Shown here one piece after another: positions 9,868 through 35,589 of a stretch of DNA of 64,000 nucleotides. Source of the DNA: Sphingobacterium alkalisoli (GTDB taxonomy: Bacteria > Bacteroidota > Bacteroidia > Sphingobacteriales > Sphingobacteriaceae); assembly GCF_005049105.1 (NCBI RefSeq), contig NZ_SUKA01000007.1, forward strand, positions 186,001 to 250,000. Reading direction: 5' to 3'. The notes below the pieces were generated by a model. It was not told the DNA's origin, made no database searches, and was given only the letters and a program-made list of their open reading frames with translations. Position numbers and translations under genes: made by a program. Every line of letters begins with the position of its first letter. The stretch's first letter is position 1.

Positions 9868-9869
9868 CA

Positions 9870-11489: not shown

Positions 11490-13442
11490 TTACAAAGGAA
11501 GGTACCTCCAAAGTTCTGTTTTATTTCTAAAATATAGGTATCCCTTATTATCCATAGTCAACAAACTAGCCCCATTATGTAAAAATGAAATCATTTTGCT
11601 TTTGCTATCTACCTTAAAGAACTTGTTCGACACTGTACCATAGACATCCCCAGAAGGATGTAACACTAAAAAAGCACTTCTCCATATATGGGATCCCATT
11701 GGCTTATGTTCATACAGATCAATAGATTCTACTACCTTATTACGATTCGTATCATAAATAAACAACTTACCACCAGCCACGCCCCATAGGCGACGATCTG
11801 GTCCTTCAATCAACCCCGTAATTGCAGGTGCTCCCTCTACCGGGATACAAACCTGTTCAATCGAATTTAGGTCGGGATTCCAAACGCAAAGCACGGCCTC
11901 TTCAGTCGAAGGTTTTACGCCCAAACCTCCCGAAATAGTGGTACCAATCCATACCTTGCGGTCCTTATAAACCATACTACTAATGGCTTGATCTTTCAGC
12001 GGTACACCATGCGAAAGCAAAAGATCCTTCTCTCGATCAAATTCTACCAGCGCACCTCCCAACAAGCCGTACTCTGGGATCATTCCAAAGTACAGCTTAT
12101 TTCTATCTTCAGCAGCAACCAAAGCAAAAGAACGTCCCTGTCCCTCTATTTCTCCGAGCCTTTGTGGATTTCCCTGCATAGGCATCCACGCTTTACGGGT
12201 ATCATATCGGTAAAACCTCCCCTTCGGATAAATACCAAAAAACAATTCACTGCCGAAGGCCACCATACCTTCCGTCTGATCCAAACCCTTCCATTCCATG
12301 CTTATCCCAGATTCTGGATCATACGTCGCATGGCCTCCTGCCAGATACCCTCCCATCCAAATTTTATTATCCGGCCCGAAAAGCAAGGCATTAATGGGGA
12401 TTGGCTGTCCAGGGATTTCCAAAGCTGTTACTATTGCGTTCTGGGTATTAAAATTGTACGCAAAAAGCTCACCGTGGGCATTAAGCACATACAAACTATC
12501 CTTCCAGCACGACAATGCATTAGCAGATCCGACCTCTTTCCGAAGAATTTTCGATGTACGGATGGATTTCGAGGGATCAAACATTTTTAAGTTTCCCCCA
12601 GAGGTATAATACACATTATTGGCATTAGATGCTAATGCTTTCATATCCATGCTATCGATTTCCTGCTCAAATCTTTCCGTTTTAAGGTTATATACCAAAG
12701 TTTCCCTTCCTGACGTAAGAAGTGCAAATAGGCGATCTGCGCCGTCTGCTGCAGGCACAATCTCCAAACCATAAACAAATTCCTTCGTACCATATTCCGC
12801 TGGCAGCAGTTCTTTTTTTTCTGCCGTCCGCGGATTCAACTGTAAAAGATGAGCGTGCGATCCGACTCCGACATACAATTTATCAGTATTTTTATGATAT
12901 GCCAAACTGCGCACATAGTTTTCCGATGCAACAATCGGCCCGTTTCCCACATCCGAAAAACCCTCACGTGGATGGTATCGAAATACCCTACAACCGGGAT
13001 ACGTTGCACCAAACACCTCGCCGTCCTTTCCTACCGCCAGATTCCACACATACGTCTCTCCCGGCAATGCTTGCCCTAAATTTTCAACGATTTGCGTACC
13101 AGGGCGGTGTCGAAATAAAATACCGCTTGCACCAGGAATATACAAGTATCCGTCATCGGTAAAAGCAAGATCCCACGCGCCGTCCGTATTCGGCAACGGT
13201 TGATTCACCAAGAGCTTCTTTGTGATCAAATCGTATCCCAAAAGGTAAGCAGGTTCGCCACGTACGACGGTATAGACGTAATCCCTTCCAGCCACATCAT
13301 GCAAAAACAGGCTTCCTTGAATCATGTTTGCGGTAAGCTGAGTCCCTAAATTTTCAAACCGACCAGCTTCTTTTTCCTGCGACCTAGTTTCATCACAAAC
13401 AAAGCAGGTAAATAAGATAAAAAATATTACGCTGTAGTACAT
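11490..13442 (-). CDS. secreted beta-propeller protein
   Basis: This 650-residue protein has a hydrophobic N-terminal signal and repeating blades of about 45-60 residues of the type VWNLAVGKDGEVFG, VRSLAYHKNTDKLYVGVGS and VYGLEIVPA. They indicate a multi-bladed propeller of the PQQ-like/YVTN type. No catalytic motif is recognisable by eye. Several propeller families are polysaccharide lyases, and the GH88 gene in this locus needs a lyase partner, so an exported lyase or a glycan-binding protein are both possible. It is the last gene of the leftward operon, with only two bases separating it from the DHDPS-type gene. Confidence 0.75.
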   Translation of the reverse strand: MYYSVIFFILFTCFVCDETRSQEKEAGRFENLGTQLTANMIQGSLFLHDVAGRDYVYTVVRGEPAYLLGYDLITKKLLVNQPLPNTDGAWDLAFTDDGYLYIPGASGILFRHRPGTQIVENLGQALPGETYVWNLAVGKDGEVFGATYPGCRVFRYHPREGFSDVGNGPIVASENYVRSLAYHKNTDKLYVGVGSHAHLLQLNPRTAEKKELLPAEYGTKEFVYGLEIVPAADGADRLFALLTSGRETLVYNLKTERFEQEIDSMDMKALASNANNVYYTSGGNLKMFDPSKSIRTSKILRKEVGSANALSCWKDSLYVLNAHGELFAYNFNTQNAIVTALEIPGQPIPINALLFGPDNKIWMGGYLAGGHATYDPESGISMEWKGLDQTEGMVAFGSELFFGIYPKGRFYRYDTRKAWMPMQGNPQRLGEIEGQGRSFALVAAEDRNKLYFGMIPEYGLLGGALVEFDREKDLLLSHGVPLKDQAISSMVYKDRKVWIGTTISGGLGVKPSTEEAVLCVWNPDLNSIEQVCIPVEGAPAITGLIEGPDRRLWGVAGGKLFIYDTNRNKVVESIDLYEHKPMGSHIWRSAFLVLHPSGDVYGTVSNKFFKVDSKSKMISFLHNGASLLTMDNKGYLYFRNKTELWRYLPL

Positions 13443-13444
13443 AG

Positions 13445-14506
13445 TTATTCATTTTCAACTAAAAAATCTTTCACAAATAGATCGTCATGCAGATGCGGAT
13501 ACGCATTATATACCCGATCAATTTCTTCCAACTGTCCCGGAGACAGATCTTCATCGGGATTAAGGCACCATCTTCCGACTAATAACCCTTGCCTACGCAA
13601 CACCTCATGTATCCCGGGAATACAACCGTGAAAACCATGTCTAGGATCGAACAATGCTGCATTGACATCGGTTATTTGTATTCCCCGGGCAAGAAGTTCG
13701 TCTGCTATCCCTGCCGTCTTTTGCGAGCGATAATGCTGAATTTCCGCCATTAATTCCACTGCTTTATGTGTCCACACTGCCCAATGCCCAAGCAAGCCAC
13801 CTCTAAAACCGATCTCTACCGGGGTATTATCCACATCAAAACGATAAGGTGTCAATAGATCGGCGACAATATTGTCGTCATTTCCGGTATACATTGCGAT
13901 ATCCATTCGACGACTAGAGTGCGCGACGGCACGCATTACATCTAACGTTTGATAGCGATTGAAGGAGGCACATTTTATCGCCTCTACATTTTCAATTTCT
14001 GCAAATTCTCTCCAAAAATCGTAGCTAAACACCCGACCACCTACAGAAGGCTGTAGGTAGAAGCCAAATACCGGAATCACCTGTGCTACCATGCGTGTCC
14101 GTTTAAGGATGTCCTCTTCTGTCATTCCTTGAAGACCTCCCATACTCAGCAATCCCATATCATATCCGTATTTACGTGCTAAGCTTGCTTCTGTCAATGC
14201 CTGCTCTGTAGGTCCGCAGATTCCGGCTATTTTGATAAAAGGTGCTTTCTTTTCAAAGCGCTCCACTTCCTCTGCCGCCCATTGCAATACTGTTTCTAAA
14301 AGATTGATTTTTGGATCTCTAATTTCAAACTGAGTGGAATGCACCCCTACTGCGATACCACCGGCTCCCGTGGCCAAGTAATACCGCGTCAATCGACGTT
14401 GGCGTTGTTCATCTATATTTCTTTCGGCATCCAAGGCTAAAGGATGTGCTGGAATCACCGTCCCCCGGAGCAAGTGTTCCTTAATTGTTACGTCTAGCTT
14501 ATCCAT
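13445..14506 (-). CDS. DHDPS/N-acetylneuraminate lyase superfamily aldolase
   Basis: This 353-residue cytoplasmic TIM-barrel protein has the superfamily start GTVIPAHPLALD. Its likely Schiff-base lysine is about residue 178 (VEAIKCASFNRY) and its likely catalytic tyrosine about residue 150 (FGFYLQPSVGG). Members cleave or form 2-keto acids, such as 2-keto-3-deoxy-aldonates, to pyruvate and an aldehyde. It is longer than classic DapA (about 290 residues) and is not near lysine biosynthesis genes. Its ATG overlaps the SDR stop codon as TAATG. In this operon it is probably the final aldolase of an oxidative sugar or uronate pathway; the substrate is inferred. Confidence 0.8.
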   Translation of the reverse strand: MDKLDVTIKEHLLRGTVIPAHPLALDAERNIDEQRQRRLTRYYLATGAGGIAVGVHSTQFEIRDPKINLLETVLQWAAEEVERFEKKAPFIKIAGICGPTEQALTEASLARKYGYDMGLLSMGGLQGMTEEDILKRTRMVAQVIPVFGFYLQPSVGGRVFSYDFWREFAEIENVEAIKCASFNRYQTLDVMRAVAHSSRRMDIAMYTGNDDNIVADLLTPYRFDVDNTPVEIGFRGGLLGHWAVWTHKAVELMAEIQHYRSQKTAGIADELLARGIQITDVNAALFDPRHGFHGCIPGIHEVLRRQGLLVGRWCLNPDEDLSPGQLEEIDRVYNAYPHLHDDLFVKDFLVENE

Positions 14507-15525
14507 TAAAATTTCCCTCCTCTCTCTTGAAAATGAGTTTCTTTATTCCATTCTTCGCCACCAAGGCGTAACCAACTTGCTGTGATATTTATGATTTCAC
14601 GAATAGAGAGCTTCGGATAGCCAAATAATCGATGGCAGTCCGATGCGTTGTTTAGCAATGCCGTTCTAGCAGGCTCGTTTACAAAAATCGGTTCAATATC
14701 AAACAAACGTCCAAATTCGTTGGCTAGCCAGACAATTCCTATCGTTTCTGGACCTGTCACATTTAAAATTCTAGCGGGATTACTCGTATGTAGCAATGAA
14801 CGTAGTGCAATCTCATTGGCGTCACCTTGCCAAATGACATTTACCATAGCTGTACTCAGATCTATGGGCTTGCCACGCAATACCGATTTAGCTATTTCCA
14901 TCACTACACCATAGCGAAAATCCACCGCATAATTCAATCGATAGATCAGCATATTGGTATGGTTTTTTTTTGAAAAGTAAGTTAAGATACGCTCCCTGCC
15001 CAAACACGATTGCGCATATTCGCCTATCGGCTCGGGAGTTGTATCTTCCGAAGCTCCTCCAGACACTGGACTCACAAAAGGCAATACATTCCCAGATGAT
15101 AAAGCCACAATATTCGATTTCTTGTAGCGGTCAGCCACCCTTCCGGGGAGGTAGGCGTTCATGGCCCAAGTGAAACTCTCATTACCCGAAGTACCAAATT
15201 TATGTCCCGCCAAATAGATTACATGGTCAGCATCCGGAAGACGCTGCAGCGACTCATCTTCCAATAAATCACATGATATGGTCTCTATCCCCGCTTCTTC
15301 TAATTCCGTTTTAGTTCGTGAGTCTGAAAAACGTGACACGCCAATTATACGTTTATTTACTCCAGCCGCTTGCGCCGCCCGTACGGCCAGTTTACCCATA
15401 CTGGGTCCCATCTTTCCCCCGATGCCGAGTAATAAAATATCACCCTCAATCTTCTTTATATCCTCAATAAGATCAACCGAAGGCTCGGTAAATCGTTGTT
15501 CTAATTCCTGCAATGTGTAATCCAT
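14506..15525 (-). CDS. NAD-dependent epimerase/dehydratase family (extended SDR)
   Basis: This 339-residue protein has an N-terminal Rossmann fold with GIGGKMG (about residues 35-41) as the dinucleotide loop. The active-site region reads GEYAQSCLGRERI: the usual YxxxK becomes Y-A-Q-S-C, so the catalytic lysine is replaced by cysteine. It may act as a non-classical oxidoreductase or dehydratase, or rely on another base. It lies between the transporter gene and the aldolase gene, so it probably converts the imported sugar acid. The SDR family is clear; the reaction is unknown. Confidence 0.8.
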   Translation of the reverse strand: MDYTLQELEQRFTEPSVDLIEDIKKIEGDILLLGIGGKMGPSMGKLAVRAAQAAGVNKRIIGVSRFSDSRTKTELEEAGIETISCDLLEDESLQRLPDADHVIYLAGHKFGTSGNESFTWAMNAYLPGRVADRYKKSNIVALSSGNVLPFVSPVSGGASEDTTPEPIGEYAQSCLGRERILTYFSKKNHTNMLIYRLNYAVDFRYGVVMEIAKSVLRGKPIDLSTAMVNVIWQGDANEIALRSLLHTSNPARILNVTGPETIGIVWLANEFGRLFDIEPIFVNEPARTALLNNASDCHRLFGYPKLSIREIINITASWLRLGGEEWNKETHFQERGGKF

Positions 15526-15541
15526 AGCTGTTTTAAAATTT

Positions 15542-16759
15542 TTATTTAATAAACATATTGTAAAAATTATAGACTGCTAAACCAGTCAAACAAAGTAAGC
15601 CGACAAAACCGCTTATCTTTTGAAATTGGGAATTCCTATTATCCTTCATAATTGAACTATCGTTTGCAACGCTAAACATCATATATCCAATAAAAGGCAC
15701 CAAAAAAATCGTGATACTTTGCGCCAGAACAATGAGCTGAAGTGGTAATCCTCCAAATAGAATCGCTACACTAGCCCCTATCAACATCACTAAAGCGATA
15801 CATATACGGCTTCCCAACGTATCCATTCCCTGTTTAAATCCTAGCGCGTCGGCAAGTAACGACCCACCAACCGTTGCATTCCCAACCAAAGACGAAAAAG
15901 ATGCCGCAAACAGTCCAGTCAGGAACACGCCGGAGGCATATCCACCAAACAGAGGCTGAAGGACATTCGCCATATCCATAGCACTTATCAATTGAATTTG
16001 CTTCGGATGCAGAATAGAGGCCGAACAAATCATAACGATCATACTCATAACACCCAACATGATAATACCTATTAAGCTTTTATCTTGATAAGCTCCTGTT
16101 GCTCGTGTCTTTTTTCTTTCCTGTACGAGATAAGACTGATAAAAGGCCCCGACAATAGAAAAACACGATGCCATGAAGGCAATGATCAATCCTTCTGAGC
16201 CCTCGGGTAGTGAGGGGATAGCACCTGCAGCGAGGAGCTCCAAATTAGGCTTCGCAAGAATAAGTGTGATGGTGAAAGATAAAAACATCAGGAGAACCAA
16301 AAATAGCATCAACCTCTCCAACACACGATAAAAAGAGCTAAAGAAAAGTAGTGATATCCCCATTATCGTAAATGCTATAATCCAAAGTTGGGGCGAAGTT
16401 TTTGTAGGCTCAGCGAGTGAAATACCTACACCGATTGCATTTCCGGCCTGAAAAGAAGCGGCAACCGAAAATATACCTATCCCTACGCATAATACCGCCC
16501 AACGTCCAAATTTGTTGCGAATCAGCTGTATCAGCGATTGCACATTGTGCATTCCGATACGACTTCCCATACCTGTAAATATGGCCATAAAAAAAATTGC
16601 TATCGGAACAATCCACACTAAGCTGTATCCATATGTAGCCCCCAACTTTGAGGTGATCGTCATCTTACTTGGTCCAAATACAACTGCAGCGATAATTATT
16701 CCTGGTATCAAGCTTTTCATCCACGTAGAGAGCGTAAACTTATTTCCCTTATTTTTCAT
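15542..16759 (-). CDS. Nramp-superfamily transporter lacking canonical metal ligands
   Basis: This 405-residue integral membrane protein has about 11 hydrophobic segments and the Nramp layout. The first helix holds FGPSKMT where Nramp metal transporters have DPGN. The sixth helix reads SIVGAFYQSYLVQE where they have an MPH-type motif. Both metal-binding signatures are therefore missing. Its position after a periplasmic sugar dehydrogenase and before two cytoplasmic sugar-acid enzymes suggests that it imports an organic acid or sugar rather than a metal. Its start overlaps the upstream stop as TAATG. Family membership is seen; substrate is inferred. Confidence 0.78.
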   Translation of the reverse strand: MKNKGNKFTLSTWMKSLIPGIIIAAVVFGPSKMTITSKLGATYGYSLVWIVPIAIFFMAIFTGMGSRIGMHNVQSLIQLIRNKFGRWAVLCVGIGIFSVAASFQAGNAIGVGISLAEPTKTSPQLWIIAFTIMGISLLFFSSFYRVLERLMLFLVLLMFLSFTITLILAKPNLELLAAGAIPSLPEGSEGLIIAFMASCFSIVGAFYQSYLVQERKKTRATGAYQDKSLIGIIMLGVMSMIVMICSASILHPKQIQLISAMDMANVLQPLFGGYASGVFLTGLFAASFSSLVGNATVGGSLLADALGFKQGMDTLGSRICIALVMLIGASVAILFGGLPLQLIVLAQSITIFLVPFIGYMMFSVANDSSIMKDNRNSQFQKISGFVGLLCLTGLAVYNFYNMFIK

Positions 16760-18294
16760 TATTTATTTCGTTTAGCTTTCACTTCAGATAAAGAAATAGA
16801 ATCGGTGTTATTCCCAAATTCCTTGCGGATATAATTAACAATTTGTTGAATTTCCTCGTCCTTCAAAAAAGAAAAAGCAGGCATTTGCTGATCGTATACT
16901 TGCCCCTTCACCGTTATCTTGCCCGAGAGGCCGTTCATCAAAATATCCAGTAAACGGCTTTTACTATCCGACACCTGCGAAGCCCCCACTAATGGTGGAA
17001 ATATTCCGACAACGCCGCTTCCATCCTCTTTATGGCAAGAAGCACAATACAAAGTAAATAATTGCTTCCCATCCTTCCCCCTATTTATGTGACCACTTTC
17101 TTTATTCACCGTGACAGGACGTATGGGTATCCCATGCACCTCTGTCGTACTACTTATTTTAAGAATACGATCATCTCCTTCCCGTGGAAAACCTTTGGAT
17201 GGATTCCAATCGCGGTTACTGGTCGCCAAAAACAGATCTCCGTGTGGGGAAACAGCAATCGCGCGTAATCTGCCGTATCGACTTTCGAAAAGGATCTGCT
17301 CATCTACAATTTGCTGCCCACCAGCACTTAATTTCATTACCCGTAATGACTGTGTTTTGAGCGTAGCAAGTAACAAACTGTTTTTCCATTCTGGAATCTT
17401 GGTCCCTGTGTAAAATGACAATCCTGCAGGAGCAATGACAGGTGTCCATGAATGCAAAGGTTCCGACGTATGGTGCTGTGTTGCATAAGAACGCTCCTGT
17501 TCTGTATCATGAAATCCCTCTATAACGGGCCAGCCATAATTTTCACCTTTCCTGATGAGATTTATCTCATCTTCGATGGCATCACCATGCTCCGATGTAT
17601 ATAGCATACCACTATCCGAAAAGGTCATTCCTTGTATATTCCTGAAACCATATGACCATACGTAACTGTCGACAAAAGGATTATCATCAGGAATCGAGCC
17701 GTCCAGATTAAGCCGAAGAACTTTTCCATTAAGCCGTGTCGTGTCCTGTGCCCACTCCCCGTGGTGCGCATCCCCTGTAGCCCACAGCATCTTGTGATCG
17801 CGAGAGATCAGCAAACGTGATCCATTATGCCCCGTATTACCTGGAATCCTTAACAAAACTTCCGGCTTAATCAGGGTGTCCAGTCCGATCTCATAACGTA
17901 CCAAAAGAGAAAAAATAGAATCTTGCTCTTTTTTTGTATAATGCACATATGCATAGGGATTGTTTTCTAGATCTGGATGAAGTACCATACTTAGTAAGCC
18001 TAAGGTACGATAGCGGTACACGTCCGCAATCTGCAACAGGACTTTCGACTTCCCCGTATTCGGATCGATCTTTTTTATGGTCCCTCCCTGTTCTGTAACC
18101 CAAAGGAAACCATCCGATCCAAATAGCATGTTCCATGGAACGTCCATTTCTGAAGATAATACCTCCACTTTTAAATTGGTACTGTCCAGTTTTATATAGT
18201 CTATGATCGGAAGATCCACACGATCATGACTACTGCAAGAAGTAAAAATGAACAGAAGAATCCAGCAGAAGAATCCAATACAATGCTTCATCAT
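16759..18294 (-). CDS. PQQ-type sugar dehydrogenase with C-terminal cytochrome c
   Basis: This 511-residue lipoprotein has a signal ending in FTSCSS. Residues about 40-390 are the GSDH/sorbosone dehydrogenase propeller: VPWNMLFGSDGFLWVTEQGG, GNTGHNGSRLLIS, GDAHHGEWAQDTT, YGWPVIEG. The C-terminal 100 residues are a cytochrome c domain with the heme motif CASCH (about 419-423) and a distal Met in QQMPAF. The protein should oxidise an aldose or similar in the periplasm and pass electrons to the respiratory chain. Its ATG overlaps the stop of the BNR_4 gene (ATGA). Substrate is unknown. Confidence 0.88.
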   Translation of the reverse strand: MMKHCIGFFCWILLFIFTSCSSHDRVDLPIIDYIKLDSTNLKVEVLSSEMDVPWNMLFGSDGFLWVTEQGGTIKKIDPNTGKSKVLLQIADVYRYRTLGLLSMVLHPDLENNPYAYVHYTKKEQDSIFSLLVRYEIGLDTLIKPEVLLRIPGNTGHNGSRLLISRDHKMLWATGDAHHGEWAQDTTRLNGKVLRLNLDGSIPDDNPFVDSYVWSYGFRNIQGMTFSDSGMLYTSEHGDAIEDEINLIRKGENYGWPVIEGFHDTEQERSYATQHHTSEPLHSWTPVIAPAGLSFYTGTKIPEWKNSLLLATLKTQSLRVMKLSAGGQQIVDEQILFESRYGRLRAIAVSPHGDLFLATSNRDWNPSKGFPREGDDRILKISSTTEVHGIPIRPVTVNKESGHINRGKDGKQLFTLYCASCHKEDGSGVVGIFPPLVGASQVSDSKSRLLDILMNGLSGKITVKGQVYDQQMPAFSFLKDEEIQQIVNYIRKEFGNNTDSISLSEVKAKRNK

Positions 18295-19751
18295 TTCTTT
18301 ACGGGTATGGGCTTTTCAAATGGCCTTTTCATAATTGGAGGCAACATAAATACATCCCCTTTACGGTTCGCGAAATACAGGCGAGAAGAAGATTTCTGGC
18401 GTCCATGCCCATCTGCCCAAAAGGCAAAGAAATCGGGGTGTACATGCATAGGTCTCCGCGCATACGAGTGATTATATAAACTGTTAAATGTAAGTTGCCT
18501 ACTTTTCCAGGTCATCCCCTGATCTTTGCTTGTCCATAATACCATCTCACCTCCTGTATTGTAAGCTTGTGGACCTTGAGTCGTAGGACCAATAATACGC
18601 CATACTCCATCTTCATCGATATACAAAGAACCCATGTCGTAATTGTTATCCGAAGACGTAACGGGGTAGATTACCCATTCTGACCCATTGTATCTTGCCG
18701 TATTCCATTGGCGCAGACCATTTTCCGGACCCGATTGATAACCATCAGAATTTACATACAAAATAACAGGATTTCCCTTTTTGTCATAAGTTAAGTCATT
18801 GATGTAAACGTTTTTTTTAAAGGATGCATACTCCTTCACCAGTGCAGGATTATCGATTTCCCGAAGTGGAAGATCCACCACTTGACCAGAAACGGTTTGC
18901 CAAGTCTTTCCAAAATCCCGCGTTTCCAAATAGTAAAGGTTACTTCTATAATTTAACCCATTCTCACCCACTTTGAACGGATGAAAATTAAAAGACGTAC
19001 CGATGATACTATCATCGAAACTTCCACTCGTTTGGTAATGTCCTTCTTCGATTATGGCCAGATCGTTCCATGTTCCATAACTTTCGCCATCGGCGCTGTA
19101 CATAAAACTTATTGTTCGCCGAGGTTTCTTTGGTTGCCCAGGTATTACCTTTCGGTCATAATGTGTAAAGAGATTGAGAAAACCCTCCCCTTTTTTATAC
19201 CAGGTTTGCAGATAAGAGAAATTATCTAATGGTACCGATTTACCGTCTTGGATTTTGGTTGCATAAATCTGCTCAAAATCAGAAATATCGTATGGCCTCA
19301 CGCTTTTATGGATGTACGACGGTGCATTGGTGCCATGCGACGTAGAAAAAATCCAAATATATCCCTCGCTATCAATATTCATAACCGGGTTATCGTGGGC
19401 ATTATCAGTTTTCTTATCGAGCAAAATGGTAGGCTGGGGAACCATCTTCGTTTTATGATCAAAATAAGAAACAGCATGAAGCAAGGTCTTTTGTTCTTTA
19501 TCTGTCGCACCATAGCAGAAAAAAGTTTTGTTGACCTCTTTTACATAAATAGAAAATGGATAATGATTAGCTGGATAGGTCCCCAAGCCACCACTATATT
19601 TGAAATGATATTCATCGCCCGACGGCTGATCGCTGTACCAAATACCGCGATAGCCGTCGTCTTTCTCATTGAGGGTAAGTACAGTTTGGGCCCTAAGTTC
19701 GCTATTTCCAAGTCCCAGCGACAACAAAAGTAAAACCAATATTTTTTTCAT
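18291..19751 (-). CDS. secreted BNR_4 beta-propeller protein, possible polysaccharide lyase
   Basis: This 486-residue protein has a signal peptide ending near ELRAQ. It opens with DDGYRGIWYSDQPSGDEYHFKY and carries repeated BNR-like blades (SADGESYGTWN, TRDFGKTWQT, SKDQGMTWKSR), matching the BNR_4 group of seven-bladed propellers. Propellers of this kind include polysaccharide lyases active on uronate-containing glycans and some glycosidases. A GH88 enzyme, which removes the unsaturated uronate made by lyases, is encoded in the same locus, so a lyase role is attractive. No active-site assignment can be made by eye. It is the first catabolic gene after SusC/SusD, 132 bases downstream. Confidence 0.75.
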   Translation of the reverse strand: MKKILVLLLLSLGLGNSELRAQTVLTLNEKDDGYRGIWYSDQPSGDEYHFKYSGGLGTYPANHYPFSIYVKEVNKTFFCYGATDKEQKTLLHAVSYFDHKTKMVPQPTILLDKKTDNAHDNPVMNIDSEGYIWIFSTSHGTNAPSYIHKSVRPYDISDFEQIYATKIQDGKSVPLDNFSYLQTWYKKGEGFLNLFTHYDRKVIPGQPKKPRRTISFMYSADGESYGTWNDLAIIEEGHYQTSGSFDDSIIGTSFNFHPFKVGENGLNYRSNLYYLETRDFGKTWQTVSGQVVDLPLREIDNPALVKEYASFKKNVYINDLTYDKKGNPVILYVNSDGYQSGPENGLRQWNTARYNGSEWVIYPVTSSDNNYDMGSLYIDEDGVWRIIGPTTQGPQAYNTGGEMVLWTSKDQGMTWKSRQLTFNSLYNHSYARRPMHVHPDFFAFWADGHGRQKSSSRLYFANRKGDVFMLPPIMKRPFEKPIPVKK

Positions 19752-19827
19752 CCGTATATATTATTCATTTATATCGAGTACAGCGCCAGAATAAAGGAGC
19801 AAAAGTGATTTACCCATCATTGTCTAC

Positions 19828-19845
19828 TAACAATAGGTATTGTTA
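19828..19845. promoter_or_regulatory. 18-bp palindrome between susD and catabolic genes
   Basis: TAACAATA-GG-TATTGTTA has perfect 8-bp arms. It lies in the 132-base gap between the SusD stop and the BNR_4 start, where an internal promoter of the catabolic operon would be. It may be an operator; no cognate regulator is identified here. Confidence 0.4.
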
Positions 19846-19883
19846 AATAACGAGGTAATGCAACCTCCAAGAAAGAATATCCG

Positions 19884-21359
19884 TTAATCGTAATCTTGAT
19901 TTTGTGTCATCACTCCAGGATTAATTTCAATCTGACTGTTGGGTATCGGAAACAGAACATGGTGAGCTTGCATACCTATTGATTCCAACACCGCCATCGC
20001 CCTATCAGTACGCACTAGATCGAACCAGCGATGTCCTTCGAAAGCGAGTTCTACACGTCTTTCATGTTCTATTGCCAATCGAAAAGCGCCCTGATCTGCT
20101 ATCCGAAGTGCTGGTGTAACGTGATTACTTGTCTTGCTTAATAAATTTGCGCGATTACGTATCTGATTCAAATAAGCAAACGCAGGACCGTCTGCTACAT
20201 ATCCCTGCTCATTTAAAGCCTCTGCATACATCAGTAACACATCAGCAAAACGTAATACAATCCAATTATTATCACTATCCAAATTAGCCGCTGGTACCCC
20301 TAAATATTTAGCAACGTAATTGTGCATCACGGTATTTCCATTAACCACGTAGCTCGTCCGCATAGATAAATCTTTTCGTACATCGTCTACTTCATAGGCC
20401 GCATTCATATTATCTGTAGGAATATTCTGCCCCAATGGATTCCCTAAAGACGTCACGGCAGTTCCTGACCCAATAGGTGCAAATTGATTCGTAAATGGAC
20501 TGCCCTCGCCCGAGGATCCCTTTTTAAATTGTACCTCAAAGATCGATTCTTTACTGTTCTCGTTCGCGATACCGAAAACACTGGCATAGCTCGGTAGCAA
20601 TTGATACTTATTCAAGGTTGTCTGATCAATAACCTCCTTCAATTTTTGGACCGCGAGAGCCCATTTTTTCTGTGTTAGGTATACCTTCCCAAGTAACGAC
20701 ATGGCTGCACCTTTCGTAGCTCTCCCGATGTCTGCATTTCCGTATTCATATAACAACGCTCCCTCTGCATCACTTAAGTCTGAGACAATTTGAGCATATA
20801 CTTCTTCTGCGGGAGTTCTCCCGTACGCATAGCCTTCTTGCGGATTGTTGATTACTTCAAGTACTAAAGGTACGTCACCGAAAATGCGAACCATGTTGAA
20901 GTACATCAATGCACGTAAGAATTTAGCTTCCCCTCGATATTGATTCTTTAAATCTTCATCCATATTAACCGCATCGATCTTATCAATAACGATATTCGCA
21001 GCCTGTATGCCTTGGTAATGGGCACTCCACGTCGTACTACTTATGGAATTGAAGGCATTGTTCTTAAATTCGTCCACTTCCTGTAGGTTGGCTCCTGCAT
21101 TAGGATTAGGTATCCATGTATTATCAGATCGTAAGTCGCCAATGATATGCATGGAAGAATAGTACATTCCCGGATATTGTAAAGCACCATATACAGCATT
21201 AAGCGCATTTTTCATGTCTTCCGCTGTTTGGTAAAAGTTATTTCCGTTCGTCTGCGATATAGGTGCAAGATCCAAGAACTTCTTACAACCGCTCAACGAC
21301 AATATGGAGAGCAACCCCATAATTACTATATTTTTGATAGTTTTCATGTTATTCATCAT
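19884..21359 (-). CDS. SusD/RagB-type outer-membrane lipoprotein
   Basis: This 491-residue lipoprotein has a signal ending LSLSGCKK and the SusD pattern: QYRGEAKFLRALMYFNMVRIFGD, GRATKGAAMSLLGKVYL, and HERRVELAFEGHRWFDLVR near the C-terminus. It should bind the target glycan at the surface and work with the SusC encoded immediately upstream (no intergenic bases). It lies in the sigma/FecR-controlled uronate-glycan locus. Confidence 0.95.
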   Translation of the reverse strand: MMNNMKTIKNIVIMGLLSILSLSGCKKFLDLAPISQTNGNNFYQTAEDMKNALNAVYGALQYPGMYYSSMHIIGDLRSDNTWIPNPNAGANLQEVDEFKNNAFNSISSTTWSAHYQGIQAANIVIDKIDAVNMDEDLKNQYRGEAKFLRALMYFNMVRIFGDVPLVLEVINNPQEGYAYGRTPAEEVYAQIVSDLSDAEGALLYEYGNADIGRATKGAAMSLLGKVYLTQKKWALAVQKLKEVIDQTTLNKYQLLPSYASVFGIANENSKESIFEVQFKKGSSGEGSPFTNQFAPIGSGTAVTSLGNPLGQNIPTDNMNAAYEVDDVRKDLSMRTSYVVNGNTVMHNYVAKYLGVPAANLDSDNNWIVLRFADVLLMYAEALNEQGYVADGPAFAYLNQIRNRANLLSKTSNHVTPALRIADQGAFRLAIEHERRVELAFEGHRWFDLVRTDRAMAVLESIGMQAHHVLFPIPNSQIEINPGVMTQNQDYD

Positions 21360-24300
21360 TTAGAAGCCAATATTCAAACCAAACATAAACGTGCGGGCCA
21401 ACGGATAACCTCCTGCGTCCACTCCTGGAACTAATGTACTCCCCCCTTGTATACTTACTTCAGGATTATAACCTTCGTAGTTGGTCCAGGTATAGGCGTT
21501 TTGCACCGTAAAATTCAATCTCGCGTGTGCAACGCCTGCTATTTGTACAATAGATGTAGGAACTGTATAACCTAGTGTAATATTTCGAAGTCGTAGGTAC
21601 GAGCCATCCTCCACAAATGCTGATGTCACGTTATTGACTAGATTACTACCTGGAAAAGCACCGAAGTTGCGATTAACCATGGGTGATTTTCCGTCACCCG
21701 GGTTCTCTGGCGACTGCCATCCTTGTGAAGCACTTTTCAATACATTGTAAGACCCTGCATAGTTGCCATAATAGCGCCGAGCCATATTCAGTACCTCAAA
21801 ACCCTTAACACCTTGTAGTGTAAAAGAGAAGTCTATATTCTTGAACTGGAATGTGTTTGTTATACCATATGTAAAATCAGGGAAAGGACTTCCCAAAATC
21901 GTTCTGTCTGCACTTGTAATACGGCCATCACCATCCACATCTTCAAACTTGAGTTGTCCCGGTTTCGATTCATTAACGATGATAGGACTGTTGGCAATAT
22001 CTGCAGCATCTTGATACACACCAATTACCTTATACCCGTAAAAACTACCCGGCTCAGCATCAATCTGCGTAATATGTGTCGGCGCATTGGCAGAAGTTGA
22101 TTGTCTAGAGATGATCGGCGATCCATCAGAACCTAGCTCCAATACGGCAATCTGATTGGTCGATAAGTTAAAATCTGTTGTCCATTTGAAAGCGCTTACT
22201 AGATTGCGGCTGGTCACCGTAAACTCCCATCCTTTATTTTGAATCTTTCCGATATTCTGCAAAGCAGTACTATATCCTGTTAAAGTAGGGACAGGTACAT
22301 TAAGCAATAGATCAGACGTCTTTTTGTTATAATAGTCTACCGTAAGTGCAAACCGATTCTTTAAAACACTAACCTCCAATCCTAAGTCCAGCTGATTATT
22401 TTTCTCCCAACCTAGCATGCTGTTCGGGATGTTAGATATTCGCGTACCGTTGACGAGCGCACCTCCGTTTCCTCCAAAAATATAGTTTTCAATACCGGTA
22501 AGACCAATATGGCCATAGTTACTTATAAAATTATTTCCGGTTGCTCCATAACTAGCCCGCAACCGCAAGTCACTTAACCAAGAAACCTCCTTAAGAAAAG
22601 CCTCCTCTGATAAGCGCCAACCGAGCGATACCGAAGGAAAAAAACCCCATTTATTATCGGCTCCAAACCGAGAAGAACCATCCCTACGGAAAGTAGCTGT
22701 AAGTAAGTAACGATCTGCAAAGCTATAATTAATACGTGCTAAGTAAGAAAGAAGCGCCCATTCCTCCTGTGTAGTCGTTGCGTTCGTAATTAATCCCGCA
22801 GCATTTATAGTTTTTATATTATCATTCGCAAAGTTAGTCCCTGCCATACTGCTGAAGTCGACATACTCTTTCTGCGCTGTATATCCCACCAATGCATCGA
22901 TAGCATGCTGATCAAATTTCTTCTTGTAATTCAAGGTAAACTCTGCTAGCCAGTTCTTGCTTTCGGAAGAAACAGCCGTAGCGGTAGGTACTTTAGTTGC
23001 GTTTACACTATTCGGATTGACAATCGATGGGCTAAAAATATGCTCTCTAAAGTTTCGAATATCCGTACCAGCCAGCGTTTTGAATGTCAAACCATCCAAC
23101 AAGCTTACCTCCGCAAATGCAGTTCCAAGCAAACGAAGTGTGCCCTGTTTAAAATAAGACTCTTCAGCCAATTTAACCGGGTTGTCAACTTCACTCGTTC
23201 CAATACCCAGTCCCGTTATTTTTGTATAGTTGCCCTGCGCATCGTATGGGGTTAAGAATGGCGCAGCAGTGATTGCTGATTGCACAATACCACCACCTTG
23301 CCAGTTTCCTTCAGCATTTACGAGGTTGTTAAAAGTATATGAAGGAGTTAGGTTAGCGCCTACTTTCACCCTTTTATGTACATTAGATTCAACATTTATG
23401 CGGAATGAGTAGCGTTTGAGATCGGAATTCAAAATAATACCATCCTGATCTAAGTAGCCCGCAGACAAGAAATACTTTGTCTTTTCGTTACCGCCTGAAA
23501 AATTCAGCTGATAGTTATGCATCATAGCTGATCTAAAAATCTCACGTTGCCAATCCGTCCCTTCCCCCAGTGCATCTGGGTTGCTCGTCATCTCCGGTAG
23601 TTGGTACATCACGTTGTTGGTGCGAACACTATTCGGATCAGAAGCAGATCTTCCTGCGCCCGAATTGATCCACGCATTATTACGGGCTTCATTGATATAT
23701 AATGCATACTCCCGGGCATTCAACAATTCGAGATATTTTTCTACTTCCTGTACGCCACTGTTTATAGATAAGTCCATGCGCGACACACCATTCTTGCCTG
23801 ATTTGGTGGTAATGATCACTACACCATTAGATCCGCGAGAACCGTAGATGGCTGTTGCAGAAGCATCTTTTAATACTTGGATATTTTCAATATCTGCAGG
23901 ATTAATTGTATTTAGTGGATTATTGTTTTGATTGTAATCGTTAGTTACCGGAAAACCATCAATCACATAAAGTGGATCATTACCAGCGCTTAATGAGCCT
24001 GCCCCCCGAATACGCACGGAAGAACCTCCCCCTGGCGCGCCCGTGGCTTGGCTTACTTGTACCCCGGCCATTTGGCCAGCCATCGCATTGTCTAGTGAAA
24101 CAACTACCTGATTTTTTATCTTTTCACTGCTCATTGAACTAATGGAGCCTGTGATATCTTTACGTTGTTGCGAACCGTATCCCACGATCACGACTTCATT
24201 TAAGTCTTGATTCAATTGCTGCAATAGAACCCGCACGTTACTTCGATCTACAACAGTTATCTCCTTGCTCTGATACCCTGTGTAACTAACCAGCAGTACC

Positions 24301-24833
24301 GGTTTTTCTAGGTCAGTAACTAAGACAAACATACCATTGGCATCGCTCACCCCCCCGACACTCGACCCCTTTATCTTAACAGAAGCTCCCTGAAGAGGGT
24401 TTCCTTGTTCATCCACAACTTTCCCCTTAATTTCAGCAGGCTGCAATGCCTGAACGACTTCTTTGCCATGACTTACTTTATTCACGATAATTGTCCGGTT
24501 ATCGATGGTATAAGAAAATCCCTGACCCTTCAAGCTTTCTTTAAGAGCTTCTTCTAATGTAGCGTTACGCAACTGTAAAGTCACAGGAGCAGCATCTTTA
24601 AGTTCGTTATATTTGTAGAAAAAAAAGTGATTACTTTGTTTCCCTATTGCCATCAATGCCTTGTCTAATGGCATATTTTTAGTTTTCAAGGTTATCGTTT
24701 GCGAAAAACTGTGCGCACTCACTTGAAAACAACTTGCTATAATCAGCAATATAATGAGTTTCATAACAAGGATCTGTTTGAAATAAGTACATTCGGAGTA
24801 CATCCGAATTTTACCATAAACATTAAAATTCAT
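21360..24833 (-). CDS. SusC/RagA-type TonB-dependent transporter with STN signalling domain
   Basis: This is a 1157-residue transporter. An extended N-terminus precedes the signal sequence (MKLIILLIIASCFQVSA, about residues 24-40). The STN domain follows (about 46-119), then the carboxypeptidase-regulatory-like domain (about 133-205), the TonB-box-like LNEVVIVGYG, the plug (YVIDGFPVT, VLKDASATAIYGS) and the barrel ending FMFGLNIGF. The STN domain is the part that contacts a FecR anti-sigma factor, and sigma and FecR genes lie directly upstream. Substrate binding should therefore switch on this locus. A GC-rich hairpin separates it from fecR. Confidence 0.95.
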   Translation of the reverse strand: MNFNVYGKIRMYSECTYFKQILVMKLIILLIIASCFQVSAHSFSQTITLKTKNMPLDKALMAIGKQSNHFFFYKYNELKDAAPVTLQLRNATLEEALKESLKGQGFSYTIDNRTIIVNKVSHGKEVVQALQPAEIKGKVVDEQGNPLQGASVKIKGSSVGGVSDANGMFVLVTDLEKPVLLVSYTGYQSKEITVVDRSNVRVLLQQLNQDLNEVVIVGYGSQQRKDITGSISSMSSEKIKNQVVVSLDNAMAGQMAGVQVSQATGAPGGGSSVRIRGAGSLSAGNDPLYVIDGFPVTNDYNQNNNPLNTINPADIENIQVLKDASATAIYGSRGSNGVVIITTKSGKNGVSRMDLSINSGVQEVEKYLELLNAREYALYINEARNNAWINSGAGRSASDPNSVRTNNVMYQLPEMTSNPDALGEGTDWQREIFRSAMMHNYQLNFSGGNEKTKYFLSAGYLDQDGIILNSDLKRYSFRINVESNVHKRVKVGANLTPSYTFNNLVNAEGNWQGGGIVQSAITAAPFLTPYDAQGNYTKITGLGIGTSEVDNPVKLAEESYFKQGTLRLLGTAFAEVSLLDGLTFKTLAGTDIRNFREHIFSPSIVNPNSVNATKVPTATAVSSESKNWLAEFTLNYKKKFDQHAIDALVGYTAQKEYVDFSSMAGTNFANDNIKTINAAGLITNATTTQEEWALLSYLARINYSFADRYLLTATFRRDGSSRFGADNKWGFFPSVSLGWRLSEEAFLKEVSWLSDLRLRASYGATGNNFISNYGHIGLTGIENYIFGGNGGALVNGTRISNIPNSMLGWEKNNQLDLGLEVSVLKNRFALTVDYYNKKTSDLLLNVPVPTLTGYSTALQNIGKIQNKGWEFTVTSRNLVSAFKWTTDFNLSTNQIAVLELGSDGSPIISRQSTSANAPTHITQIDAEPGSFYGYKVIGVYQDAADIANSPIIVNESKPGQLKFEDVDGDGRITSADRTILGSPFPDFTYGITNTFQFKNIDFSFTLQGVKGFEVLNMARRYYGNYAGSYNVLKSASQGWQSPENPGDGKSPMVNRNFGAFPGSNLVNNVTSAFVEDGSYLRLRNITLGYTVPTSIVQIAGVAHARLNFTVQNAYTWTNYEGYNPEVSIQGGSTLVPGVDAGGYPLARTFMFGLNIGF

Positions 24834-24851
24834 AAGTTTGTCATGTTTGGG

Positions 24852-24895
24852 TTAATGGATTAATAAATGTGCAATCAAAAATTAATGGGATTAAT
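24852..24895. repeat. paired direct repeat in the susC leader
   Basis: TTAATGGATTAAT (24852-24864) and TTAATGGGATTAAT (24882-24895) are near-identical and start 30 bp apart, about three helical turns. They lie just upstream of susC on the same face of the DNA and could bind an activator or the sigma complex. Confidence 0.35.
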
Positions 24896-24924
24896 CCAAG
24901 CAGTTCCATATTACTGGAGCATAA

Positions 24925-24953
24925 AGCCAGCCGTGTTACCAGCACGGTTGGTT
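24925..24953. other. hairpin between fecR and susC
   Basis: An 11-bp stem with two G-U pairs and a 7-base loop (core CCGTG/CACGG) lies in the 196-base gap between the anti-sigma gene and susC. On the leftward transcript it is not followed by a U-run, so it may be a processing or attenuation structure that separates expression of regulator and transporter. Confidence 0.4.
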
Positions 24954-25029
24954 ATTTTTACTTGTTTCCCATTACGAAGTGTTTTTTCAGTTATGTTTTC
25001 ATGGCTTTCATTTTTTAGTTTCACGCTGG

Positions 25030-26205
25030 TTAGTTGTAAATTATAACTTTTCGACCCACTATGGTCACATTAATACGGTTAAGTTTAAGTATCCGTAATA
25101 CCTCTTCGATATTTTCTCCTCTTTTTATTTCACCGACAAATTGGTCCCGGCTCAGCTCACCTTGGTATTCCACCTCTACATCGTACCATCTTGCCACTTG
25201 CCTCATAATTGTCTGGAGATCGTCTCGATTGAATTTAAAATAACCGTCCTTCCAAGCTACAGCATCTTCATTTTGGGCACTCTCTATTACAATATGGTTG
25301 TTTACCGGAGAAATCAGCGCCTGCTGACCAGGTTGTAACAGTTTCGAAATATGAGGAATAGGATTTCTGTCCTTATCAAGCTTGGTAATTTTGATACTAC
25401 CTTCCAATAACGTCGTTTTATTCGAAGTCTCTTCTCTGTAAGTATTAACGTTGAAATGCGTACCTAGTACTTCAATCATTTGATTTTCTGAAAATACTTT
25501 AAAGGGTCTACCATGCTCTCTTTTTACTTCAAAATAAACTTCGCCACTAATATCTACCCGCCGTTCATTTGCAACGAATGCAGTAGGAAAACGAATCGAG
25601 GAAGCCGCATTTAACCAAACTTTCGTTCCGTCAGATAAAACAAGGCGATACTGCCCCCCTCGGGGAGTTTGAATCGTATTTTCCAAAACCTCACCCTGTG
25701 TTTTCATATGATAAACCAACTCTCCGTCTGCCGTCTTTTCTATCGTCACTCCCGACTGTTGTGAAATAACACCATCCGCTTCGTTATTAAGAATAAGTTG
25801 TGTGCCATCAGCCAATGTCAGTACCGCGTCGTCTTTACCGGGGCGAATGATCGCTGTATCCTGCTCCGCTACCTGAACCTGTCCCTTTCCTTCAGGCGTA
25901 TAGCGCCAGTATGCAAAAAGAGCTACACAAAGCAATGTTGCGGCTACCAGCCCTACCAAAGGTGATCGAAACCATAATGATTTAGGTTTCGTATCAAGAG
26001 CTTCCTCCTCTGCCCCGAGCATCTCATCCACTTTCCTTTTGATTTCCATACCCAGGACTATTTTTTCTTGCTCCTTCATCTCCGCTAAAACATCATCCTG
26101 TAGCTCAAACAGTTGATAGTAGGCTATTAAAAAGTCTACTTCTTCTTTCGAAGCCTTTCCTTTCTGGTACTTACGAAGCAATATCAAAAAATCTTTTTTA
26201 TCCAT
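25030..26205 (-). CDS. FecR-type anti-sigma factor
   Basis: This 391-residue inner-membrane protein has a cytoplasmic N-terminal helical domain and one membrane helix (about residues 80-100, LVGLVAATLLCVALFAYW). The periplasmic FecR domain carries IQTPRGGQYRLVLSDGTKVWLNAASSI in two parts, and a C-terminal DUF4974-type domain (YFKFNRDDLQTIMRQVARWYDVEV) resembles an STN fold. It should hold the sigma factor inactive until the STN-bearing SusC signals. It lies between the sigma and susC genes. Confidence 0.93.
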   Translation of the reverse strand: MDKKDFLILLRKYQKGKASKEEVDFLIAYYQLFELQDDVLAEMKEQEKIVLGMEIKRKVDEMLGAEEEALDTKPKSLWFRSPLVGLVAATLLCVALFAYWRYTPEGKGQVQVAEQDTAIIRPGKDDAVLTLADGTQLILNNEADGVISQQSGVTIEKTADGELVYHMKTQGEVLENTIQTPRGGQYRLVLSDGTKVWLNAASSIRFPTAFVANERRVDISGEVYFEVKREHGRPFKVFSENQMIEVLGTHFNVNTYREETSNKTTLLEGSIKITKLDKDRNPIPHISKLLQPGQQALISPVNNHIVIESAQNEDAVAWKDGYFKFNRDDLQTIMRQVARWYDVEVEYQGELSRDQFVGEIKRGENIEEVLRILKLNRINVTIVGRKVIIYN

Positions 26206-26292
26206 ATTTTGGGTTAATTGTTAGGTGCTATACAGCCCCATATATTAATAAGACCCTGAAAGACAAAAAAGTCCCACAGAGCAACTATTTTT

Positions 26293-26871
26293 TTACCAGT
26301 ATTTTAGTAAATAGATAAGGATAAGCATACCTAGCGATTGACGAAGTTGCGCCACACTCTTTCCTAATTGATTTTGCACCGTTTTGCGGGTAATACTTAA
26401 ACGGTCGGCAATCTCTAAAGTAGAGAGGTCATCATGATAACGCATGCGAAATATTTCCTGCTGTGACGGGCTCAAGGTAGCAACAAGAGCCTCATAATAA
26501 AGTAAAAACTCCTTTCTGATAATCTCTGCATCCGACTGGTCACGTGCAGCAAAAAGTTGATCAAACAGTTCAGGCAGCGGTGTGAATCGTTGAGCTCTGT
26601 CCATGCACTTGAAGACCCTGTTCCGAACTGCGATATAAAGATAAGCCCCAAGGTTGTCTATGATTAGTTCCTCCCGGCGCAACCACAATTGCAGAAAAAT
26701 ATCCTGTACAATATCCCGGGCAAGTTCTAAATCTTTCAGACGTTTATATGCTGCAGAAAAAGCATGCTCCCAGTATCTAGTATAAATCGCATCGAAAGCA
26801 AGACTATCGCCAGCTGCCATCCGATTGAGCAGATCACTTTCCATTACTTTTTCATTTACAGACTCAGACAT
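26293..26871 (-). CDS. FecI-like ECF sigma factor
   Basis: This 192-residue sigma factor has region 2 (LARDIVQDIFLQLWLRREEL) and region 4 (LSPSQQEIFRMRYHDDLSTLEIADRLSITRKTVQNQLGKSV), and ends in a hydrophobic tail. It belongs to the Bacteroidota FecI-like group (TIGR02985 type). It is followed by its FecR and the STN-bearing SusC, so it should transcribe the leftward locus. GH88 lies upstream in the same direction. Confidence 0.93.
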   Translation of the reverse strand: MSESVNEKVMESDLLNRMAAGDSLAFDAIYTRYWEHAFSAAYKRLKDLELARDIVQDIFLQLWLRREELIIDNLGAYLYIAVRNRVFKCMDRAQRFTPLPELFDQLFAARDQSDAEIIRKEFLLYYEALVATLSPSQQEIFRMRYHDDLSTLEIADRLSITRKTVQNQLGKSVAQLRQSLGMLILIYLLKYW

Positions 26872-26996
26872 GCGCTTTAGATTTGTATATACTTTATATG
26901 ATCGATTTTAAAACTAAAGATAATCAGATACGACAAAAAACCACAGTCGGTATGCACCAATAGTAGTTTATATTTTTAAAAGAACCAATCCCCCAT

Positions 26997-28259
26997 TTAC
27001 GTCTTCTCCTTATTTAGTTGTTTGCGATAGCGCAGTAGCGCTTCCAAATAATAATAATCTGCATAAATCAATGGCACATCGATCTCATTATTGCTGGGTA
27101 AATTCCCCGTGCTGTGCTTCAACAAAAAATAAGGATTATCCCCCTGTGTATTGAGATAGGTGTCGGATGCTAATGTCTCCAAAATAGCTGTAGCGCCCTG
27201 CTTATATTTCATCACTCTATGTTCATCAGTTGTCAGCGTAGACAATTCTAATAGTGCAGATGCCGTGATCGCGGCTGCCGACGCATCTCGGGGTATCTCC
27301 GTAAATCGCTCTGGATCAAAATCCCAATCAGGTGTATACCCTTCCTGCCCCGCATCGAAATCCCAATAGGGTATTTTATCTGACGGTAGTCTAGCATGAT
27401 CTAAGAAGAAATCAGCCATTCCTTCAGCTGTTTTTAGAAAACGTAGATCTCCAGTTTCGCGGTACGTCATCGTAAAACCGTATATTCCCCAAGCCTGTCC
27501 ACGTGCCCAAGTCGATTGATCGGAAAAACCTTGTAAGGTTTGTCGGTTTAACACCGTTCCTGTGTTGGGATCATAATTAACTACGTGATACGAACTGTAA
27601 TCTGCTCGTACATGATTTTTCATTGTTTGTAGTGCATGATTAATAGCAATATGCCGAAAGCTGGAATCCTTTGTTACCTTCGCTGCATAAAACAAAAGTT
27701 CTAGATTCATCATATTATCCATGATAACAGGATATTCCCATACATTTACATCACCTTTGGACTTTCGCTTATTCCATGACTGAATAGACTTTACCGTACC
27801 CGAATAGCGTTCACAAAGTGAACGGGCAGATTGTATTAGAATATCGCGGTATTGGGCATTATCTTCGAATCGCAATGCATTGCCGTAACTGCAATACATC
27901 ATGAAACCGATATCGTGATGTGCAGTATTGTATTGGTTAGATTCTAATGATTCTGTCCATTTACGTGCCTCCTCTTTCCATTTGCTATCCTTCGTATATT
28001 CATACATATACCACAGGATTCCCGGCCAAAAACCACCTGTCCATTCGTCTATCTGCAAGAATTTTAACGAGCCATCAGGATTGAGTGAATGTGGATAATC
28101 CGCTAAATTGTTTCCCGTTATCTGCAACAAGCTGTCGTAAAGCGGTGCTGCAGCCTCAAAACTCTCGGCAATTATAGGATCGGATTTCTTTTGATCTTGA
28201 CATCCCGGTAGTACCACTACCATAAAAACACATGTCAACCAGTAAAAATACACTTTCAT
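26997..28259 (-). CDS. GH88 unsaturated glucuronyl hydrolase
   Basis: This 420-residue lipoprotein (signal ending VVLPGC) has the alpha/alpha-barrel GH88 pattern: WTGGFWPGILWYMYEYT, HHDIGFMM with catalytic-type Asp116, and VIMDNMMNLELLFYA with Asp181. These two aspartates correspond to the catalytic pair of characterised UGL enzymes. It removes the 4,5-unsaturated uronic acid that polysaccharide lyases leave at the non-reducing end. It therefore implies a lyase substrate for this locus. It is encoded just upstream of the sigma gene and may be its own transcript or the first gene of the set. Confidence 0.9.
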   Translation of the reverse strand: MKVYFYWLTCVFMVVVLPGCQDQKKSDPIIAESFEAAAPLYDSLLQITGNNLADYPHSLNPDGSLKFLQIDEWTGGFWPGILWYMYEYTKDSKWKEEARKWTESLESNQYNTAHHDIGFMMYCSYGNALRFEDNAQYRDILIQSARSLCERYSGTVKSIQSWNKRKSKGDVNVWEYPVIMDNMMNLELLFYAAKVTKDSSFRHIAINHALQTMKNHVRADYSSYHVVNYDPNTGTVLNRQTLQGFSDQSTWARGQAWGIYGFTMTYRETGDLRFLKTAEGMADFFLDHARLPSDKIPYWDFDAGQEGYTPDWDFDPERFTEIPRDASAAAITASALLELSTLTTDEHRVMKYKQGATAILETLASDTYLNTQGDNPYFLLKHSTGNLPSNNEIDVPLIYADYYYLEALLRYRKQLNKEKT

Positions 28260-31998: not shown

Positions 31999-32032
31999 AA
32001 ATGCTGGTACCGCGTATGCGATACCAGCATTT
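31999..32032. terminator. bidirectional terminator
   Basis: The 11-bp stem AAATGCTGGTA/TACCAGCATTT contains a further inner CGC/GCG pairing. It lies between pfpI and the convergent phosphatase gene and overlaps the stop of the latter. Its right arm is nearly identical to that of the hairpin at 61618. Confidence 0.8.
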
Positions 32033-35567: not shown

Positions 35568-35589
35568 CTCTGTATATTATTACTAACAA

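Follow-up and report, generated by a model that had tools for sequence, protein, structure and literature searches.

A conserved Sphingobacterium locus pairing a PQQ-type dehydrogenase with an Nramp-fold carrier suggests a possible route for sugar-acid import

In a 64,000-nucleotide stretch of Sphingobacterium alkalisoli DNA (contig NZ_SUKA01000007.1; hereafter the window), 11 co-directional minus-strand genes (11490-28259) join a SusC/SusD system to a dehydrogenase of the pyrroloquinoline quinone (PQQ) type and to a cassette of three genes, which encode a carrier of the Nramp fold, an enzyme resembling extended short-chain dehydrogenases/reductases (SDR) and an enzyme of the DHDPS type. The order of these genes is conserved far beyond chance, and the Nramp-SDR-DHDPS cassette is a unit that moves between contexts. 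We regard this cassette as the part of the locus most worth pursuing, for the possibility that it imports sugar acids through an Nramp fold. As a whole, we interpret the locus as a polysaccharide utilization locus (PUL) controlled by an extracytoplasmic function (ECF) sigma factor, with periplasmic oxidation of a sugar, import through the Nramp-fold carrier and catabolism by the SDR-like and DHDPS-type enzymes, an explanation that we offer tentatively and with slightly less than even confidence.

Conservation of the locus and of the Nramp-SDR-DHDPS cassette

We compared the loci of relatives as 20-kb stretches. The full order, GH88-FecI-FecR-SusC-SusD-BNR_4-GSDH-Nramp-SDR-DHDPS-propeller, recurs in L033, L035, L039, L040 and L041, with proteins 84-99% identical to those of the window in L033 and identities down to about 50-75% in the other full-order loci. 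The order is nearly complete in L036, where SusC through the propeller is kept, and the same SusC-to-propeller series is found in Sphingobacterium nematocida (L058), a Pedobacter metagenome-assembled genome (L076) and Belliella kenyensis (L107). The nearest named loci are those of Sphingobacterium. Because GH88 recurs with the other genes, including in B. kenyensis, where a 68% identical GH88 sits after the propeller, we count it as part of the locus despite the 125-bp gap that separates it from the sigma factor gene. We had also considered that the coordinates of the preliminary description might mix two operons, and dropped this idea given the recurrence of the same gene order in relatives.

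The cassette itself was surveyed in 300 genomes of the host's taxonomic order, counting two fragments of one broken carrier gene once. These genomes hold 72 carrier, 75 SDR and 77 DHDPS genes, and all but one of the carrier genes (71/72) lie 14-119 bp upstream of an SDR gene, a linkage that led us to reject the carrier gene as a chance insertion. A second survey covered 80 GTDB loci fetched with the alignment of the DHDPS-type enzyme, 50 from Bacteroidota and 30 from Firmicutes. The carrier is present in 36 of the 50 Bacteroidota loci and stands directly before SDR-DHDPS in all 36; the 30 Firmicutes loci contain no carrier, with ABC sugar permeases in 12 of them and subunits of the Fe-S serine-dehydratase type in 12. 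Of the 80 loci, 25 include GSDH, each time together with the carrier (25/25). We found no earlier description of the Nramp-SDR-DHDPS cassette in the open-access literature.

The host genome (5.78 Mb in 22 contigs) holds a second copy of the cassette with its own GSDH (L032, G000:C22:108700-128600), and its only two PF01566 genes are those of the two cassettes. The neighbours of the second copy are a different SusCD pair, a GntR-type regulator, SMP-30 and a heparinase-II-like gene (a homologue of which matches PF18675 weakly). An ApbE-like open reading frame (ORF), recognised by eye, lies downstream of DHDPS in L073 and L104 and might hint at a flavinylated electron-transfer partner. In Paenibacillus and other Firmicutes (L086-L136), SDR-DHDPS is directly followed by genes for the beta and alpha subunits of an Fe-S L-serine dehydratase (SDH) and often by an M20 hydrolase; these SDR-DHDPS-SDH loci may reveal a new role for an SDH-type enzyme in the breakdown of amino-sugar acids.

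Family matches confirmed the genes at the coordinates given in the preliminary description, all on the minus strand, and the operon link that it drew between a PQQ dehydrogenase-cytochrome c, a transporter, an SDR and an aldolase is conserved in relatives. Absent from that description, and part of the locus, is a sigma/anti-sigma pair: a FecI-type ECF sigma factor (26293-26871; Sigma70_r2/r4) and a FecR-type anti-sigma factor with one transmembrane (TM) segment (25030-26205; PF04773, PF16344). They are followed by SusC with an N-terminal STN signalling domain (21360-24833; TIGR04056, 919.7 bits; STN PF07660) and the lipoprotein SusD (19884-21359; PF07980, PF14322). From BNR_4 to the second propeller the junctions range between a 4-base overlap and a 16-bp gap, with wider gaps upstream (SusD-BNR_4 132 bp, SusC-FecR 196 bp, in addition to that between GH88 and FecI). 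Hydropathy and N-termini predict an order from outside to inside, with SusCD in the outer membrane, periplasmic or lipoprotein enzymes, the carrier in the inner membrane and two cytosolic enzymes.

The carrier and the cytosolic enzymes

The carrier (15542-16759) scores 208.8 bits against PF01566 (cut-off 29.8) and is, by hydropathy, the only multi-pass inner-membrane protein of the operon. Alignment with 5kte shows that all four metal ligands are lost (TM1, Asp to Gly and Asn to Lys; TM6, Met to Ser and His to Val), with GPSK in place of the canonical Slc11/Nramp motif DPGN in TM1 and SIV in place of MPH in TM6; the protein is thus Nramp-related in the sense of matching PF01566 without either motif. 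GPSK is found in 54 of 59 carrier homologues, a set in which some genomes are represented more than once; of the five others, four have GPGS. In a tree, the carrier clade stands apart both from proteins with DPGN and from MntG-like proteins of the host's taxonomic order, whose genes (L149, L157-L159) encode GPGF in TM1 and lie beside YcsF-like ORFs (identified by eye). Judged by 5-oxoprolinase/YcsF neighbours together with a place in the same clade, the carrier does not belong to the MntG/YcsG group. The "unusual transporter" of the preliminary description is this Nramp-family protein; the loss of its metal site and its place in a mobile cassette had been missed. According to a 2026 study, Nramp-related groups apart from NRMT and MntG are entirely uncharacterised (PMC12873925), and an orphan Nramp outgroup is recognised in a published phylogeny (PMC10606218).

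We infer that the carrier imports the oxidised sugar acid: its metal ligands are gone, its gene stands before the SDR gene almost without exception, the operon encodes no other inner-membrane transporter, and Firmicutes SDR-DHDPS loci lack it. The link to an oxidised sugar comes from GSDH, which in our survey always had the carrier beside it. For the GPSK clade at large, the corresponding proposal is that it carries an organic acid (an aldonate, a hexosaminate or a uronate derivative) rather than a metal, and that with the Lys-less SDR and the DHDPS-type enzyme it forms an undescribed sugar-acid cassette, downstream of periplasmic PQQ-type oxidation in Bacteroidota. We consider this proposal evenly balanced between right and wrong, because the precedent of MntG/YcsG cuts the other way: this Nramp-related protein, encoded in the 5-oxoprolinase operon of B. 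subtilis and annotated earlier as a 5-oxoproline importer, is reported as an importer of Mn2+ (PMC10448178), a warning that the context of an operon can mislead when taken alone. Together with EleNRMT, which carries Mg2+ without a DPGN motif (PMC12873925), that precedent favours a reading in which our carrier imports a divalent metal (e.g. Mn2+) for an enzyme of the pathway, the sugar enters through an unlinked transporter, and the locus is otherwise an ordinary uronate-glycan PUL. We think this unlikely, if still worth keeping in view: the Lys conserved at this site disfavours a cation, the MntG-like proteins encoded beside YcsF in the host's taxonomic order branch separately and have another TM1 motif, the carrier is near-perfectly linked to SDR and DHDPS, and the Firmicutes SDR-DHDPS loci do without it, 12 of the 30 having ABC sugar permeases instead. 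If it does carry an organic acid, the GPSK clade would give a job to a group of Nramp-related proteins without an assigned cargo, and its tie to two catabolic enzymes, with a Lys in the former metal site, makes for a concrete and testable cargo hypothesis.

Both cytosolic enzymes lack a motif that is usual in their families. The SDR-like enzyme (14506-15525; PF01370) keeps the glycine motif and has EYAQSC at the place of the catalytic YxxxK. Its solved relatives were found only with a profile, the match being the distant TerB (6d2v, E 5e-6), which probably acts in an unsaturated hexuronic acid pathway, a role for which no paper was found. The DHDPS-type enzyme (13445-14506), a member of the DHDPS/NAL superfamily barely above the cut-off of PF00701, is matched by no NCBIfam model and has an N-acetylneuraminate lyase (8u8w) as its best solved relative. 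As expected of a class I aldolase, its Schiff-base residue K178 and Y150 are invariant in homologues; the pyruvate-binding motif GTTGE is replaced by VH[ST]TQF[EQ]I (VHSTQFE in the window). The natural guess is that this enzyme releases pyruvate from a 2-keto-3-deoxy acid. Non-homologous dehydratase-type genes stand beside SDR-DHDPS in different groups, of the enolase superfamily in Bacteroidota and of the Fe-S serine-dehydratase alpha/beta type in Paenibacillus, as would fit a pathway in which a 2,3-dihydroxy or 2-amino-3-hydroxy acid loses water before it is cleaved.

The window operon itself has no dehydratase gene, which would suit a shorter route: GH88 would free a 4-deoxy-5-keto uronate, the carrier would import it, the SDR would reduce it to 2-keto-3-deoxygluconate for cleavage by the DHDPS-type enzyme, and the dehydrogenase would serve some other sugar. 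The conserved aldolase Lys and Tyr fit this route, as does the weakly called heparinase-II-like gene adjoining the host's second cassette. We nevertheless find it very doubtful, given that the cassette is also found where neither GH88 nor a recognised lyase is present, alongside enolase-type or Fe-S dehydratases, and that the constant company of GSDH and carrier points to an oxidised sugar.

Periplasmic enzymes and the glycan

The dehydrogenase (16759-18294; PF07995, PF00034) is a GSDH-type lipoprotein that aligns well with soluble glucose dehydrogenase (sGDH). It keeps the PQQ-site positions (His, Arg-Asn, Trp, Lys and a pair of Arg), as do its homologues, in segments that read HNG, GFRN, LKT and GRLR; we take these to hold the sGDH residues His144, Arg228-Asn229, Lys377 and Arg406/408. 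The CxxCH of the cytochrome c domain is present in all 25 homologues checked. At the sequence level, these features speak for a fusion of a periplasmic PQQ-type dehydrogenase and cytochrome c.

The first gene of the locus encodes a predicted GH88 unsaturated glucuronyl hydrolase, lipoprotein-like (26997-28259; PF07470). Over 336 residues it shares 51% identity with 3wiw, which bears the molecule name "Glycosyl hydrolase family 88" and is presumably the heparin-type unsaturated glucuronyl hydrolase of Pedobacter heparinus. It keeps both catalytic Asp, aligned with Asp88 and Asp149 of the Bacillus enzyme 1vd5 (segments HHDIGF and IMDNMMNL). Because GH88 requires an unsaturated uronyl end, a lyase must act somewhere, and here the preliminary description, which had argued for a lyase step, is borne out by the identity of the enzyme and its two Asp.

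It had further named two secreted propellers as the best lyase candidates. For the first, the secreted BNR_4 protein (18291-19751; PF15892), the sole convincing solved relative is the ulvan lyase 5uam of polysaccharide lyase family 25 (PL25; E 1e-4, improving to 5e-7 when a family profile was used), and the rhamnose-glucuronate lyase FoRham1 likewise belongs to the Pfam family BNR_4 (PMC8377490). With the catalytic residue assignments for PL25 and FoRham1 from the same source (PMC8377490), the PL25 pair His123 and His143 falls on H119 and H139, and Y180 probably corresponds to Tyr188 of PL25; H119, H139, Y180 and H197 are invariant among seven homologues. The neutralising Arg204 of PL25 (Arg166 in FoRham1) aligns, in weak alignments, with a Lys or with H197. 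Because this position shows no Arg, we do not claim membership in the PL25/PL24/FoRham1 lyases, and we treat the protein, a distant PL25 relative, as the best lyase candidate in the locus. Its AlphaFold2 model (mean pLDDT 58) was too poor and was left out of the fold search.

The second propeller (11490-13442; Reg_prop), also secreted, of 650 residues and single-copy in the genome, gave a better model (pLDDT 86) and no match in a sequence search of solved structures. Foldseek and VIA-align matched the model to hundreds of unrelated propellers, from which no function can be read; the match to streptogramin B lyase 2qc5 (Z 29.6, rmsd 2.5, 284 aligned residues) is tied with WD40 and YncE propellers. 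A lyase role for both propellers is thus not supported, with no neutraliser Arg seen in the weak alignments of the first and no lyase match that stands out for the second; what survives is the candidacy of the BNR_4 protein.

The genes that accompany the locus in relatives point to the glycan. A GH20 hexosaminidase gene directly follows the second propeller in L035, L036, L039, L040 and L041 (Pfam scans covered three of these five), L076 has another GH20-like gene downstream, and the module is often accompanied by M20 hydrolases, NagB-like proteins and class III aminotransferases. At least one amino-sugar-type gene was found in 14 of 20 cassette loci and in none of 20 control regions from the same genomes (Fisher p 3e-6), a contrast and p value that overstate independence, as the loci and controls are phylogenetically related. 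Given the GH20 genes in relatives and 3wiw as the nearest GH88, a glycan of uronate and hexosamine is a better fit than ulvan, gum arabic or pectin, and the glycan that we favour contains uronic acid and probably hexosamine.

The preliminary description had instead pictured a uronate glycan of plant or algal origin and free of amino sugar (ulvan, gum arabic, glucuronan or pectin), cut by both propellers, with the dehydrogenase acting on rhamnose, xylose or glucose. The Pfam family that the BNR_4 protein shares with FoRham1 (PMC8377490), PL25 as its nearest solved relative and the need of GH88 for a lyase product speak for this version. We rate it as quite unlikely, since the module comes with GH20, M20, NagB-like and aminotransferase genes, the neutraliser Arg common to PL24, PL25 and FoRham1 is not seen, and no lyase match stands out for the 650-residue propeller. 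The closest relative of the GH88, the presumably heparin-type 3wiw, also argues against it.

Proposed pathway, neighbouring loci and known systems

In the pathway that we favour, SusC and SusD would bring oligosaccharides into the periplasm, where a lyase, with the BNR_4 protein as best candidate, would leave unsaturated uronyl ends for GH88 to take off. The PQQ-type dehydrogenase, anchored in the membrane, would oxidise a released aldose (possibly the hexosamine) at C1 and pass the electrons on through the cytochrome c fused to it. This would yield an acidic product, either an aldonate or a lactone or perhaps a uronate-derived keto acid, that would cross the inner membrane through the Nramp-fold carrier, and in the cytosol the SDR-like and DHDPS-type enzymes would lead to a 2-keto-3-deoxy acid, from which pyruvate would then be split off. 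Such a route would not be the textbook one for Bacteroidota, with the sugar oxidised in the periplasm and imported as an acid. The broader idea of the preliminary description, lyase depolymerisation joined to periplasmic oxidation, remains plausible and gains partial support from the GH88 Asp residues, the PQQ-site residues and the conserved linkage, without its substrates or its pair of propeller lyases.

Other observations besides the MntG/YcsG precedent count against this pathway. In 71 of 72 SDR homologues, EY[AG]QS is followed by C, T or S and never by K (one has no match to the motif), and because the catalytic Lys is missing we assign no simple redox step to this enzyme. GH20 is not in the window's own operon, its three matches lying elsewhere in the host genome, and M20 and NagB-like genes can serve other roles. 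PqqC, PqqE and other PQQ synthesis genes gave no match over the cut-off in the host genome, and PqqC gave none in 198 Bacteroidota; their absence is not proven by this, because the PqqC search was silent in control genomes too. PQQ may have to come from outside.

A SusC/SusD pair on the plus strand (6643-11336) runs convergently towards the end of the locus; at this place the close relative L033 carries M20 and Gfo/Idh genes, which the window strain may have lost or replaced. On the other side lies a second PUL (32032-40629, minus strand) with an alkaline-phosphatase-like protein, SusD, SusC, FecR and an ECF sigma factor; with metallophosphatases nearby (40781-43022), it looks like a system for organic phosphate use. 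A small carotenoid cluster (46537-49585; phytoene synthase, desaturase-like amine oxidase and MarR-family regulator) and a further ECF/FecR-SusCD locus that also encodes thioredoxin-like proteins and an S41 protease (49784-63957) follow.

Set against known systems, the locus shares FecI, FecR, SusC with STN, SusD and glycan-active enzymes with SusCD PULs under ECF sigma control, and differs in adding periplasmic PQQ-type oxidation and an Nramp-fold carrier. Its GH88 resembles 3wiw in sequence and catalytic Asp but is encoded in a FecI/FecR-SusCD locus that has an oxidative branch. The BNR_4 protein has the domain, the His pair 20 residues apart and the Tyr of PL25, PL24, FoRham1 and GH145, and is set off from them by its sequence distance and the lack of an aligned neutraliser Arg. 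The dehydrogenase has the PF07995 domain and the His, Arg-Asn, Lys and Arg of the PQQ site in common with the sGDH/GSDH family; the window protein differs as a lipoprotein with a fused C-terminal cytochrome c. With the DHDPS/N-acetylneuraminate lyase superfamily, the DHDPS-type enzyme shares the Schiff-base Lys and the Tyr, but it is a 350-residue variant in which GTTGE is replaced. Finally, like other Nramp-related proteins (NRMT, MntG/YcsG, MumT and the uncharacterised groups), the carrier is a predicted multi-pass PF01566 protein without DPGN or MPH, whereas it falls in a clade of its own with GPSK in TM1, linked to SDR-DHDPS and often to GSDH rather than to M-box, 5-oxoprolinase or urea genes.

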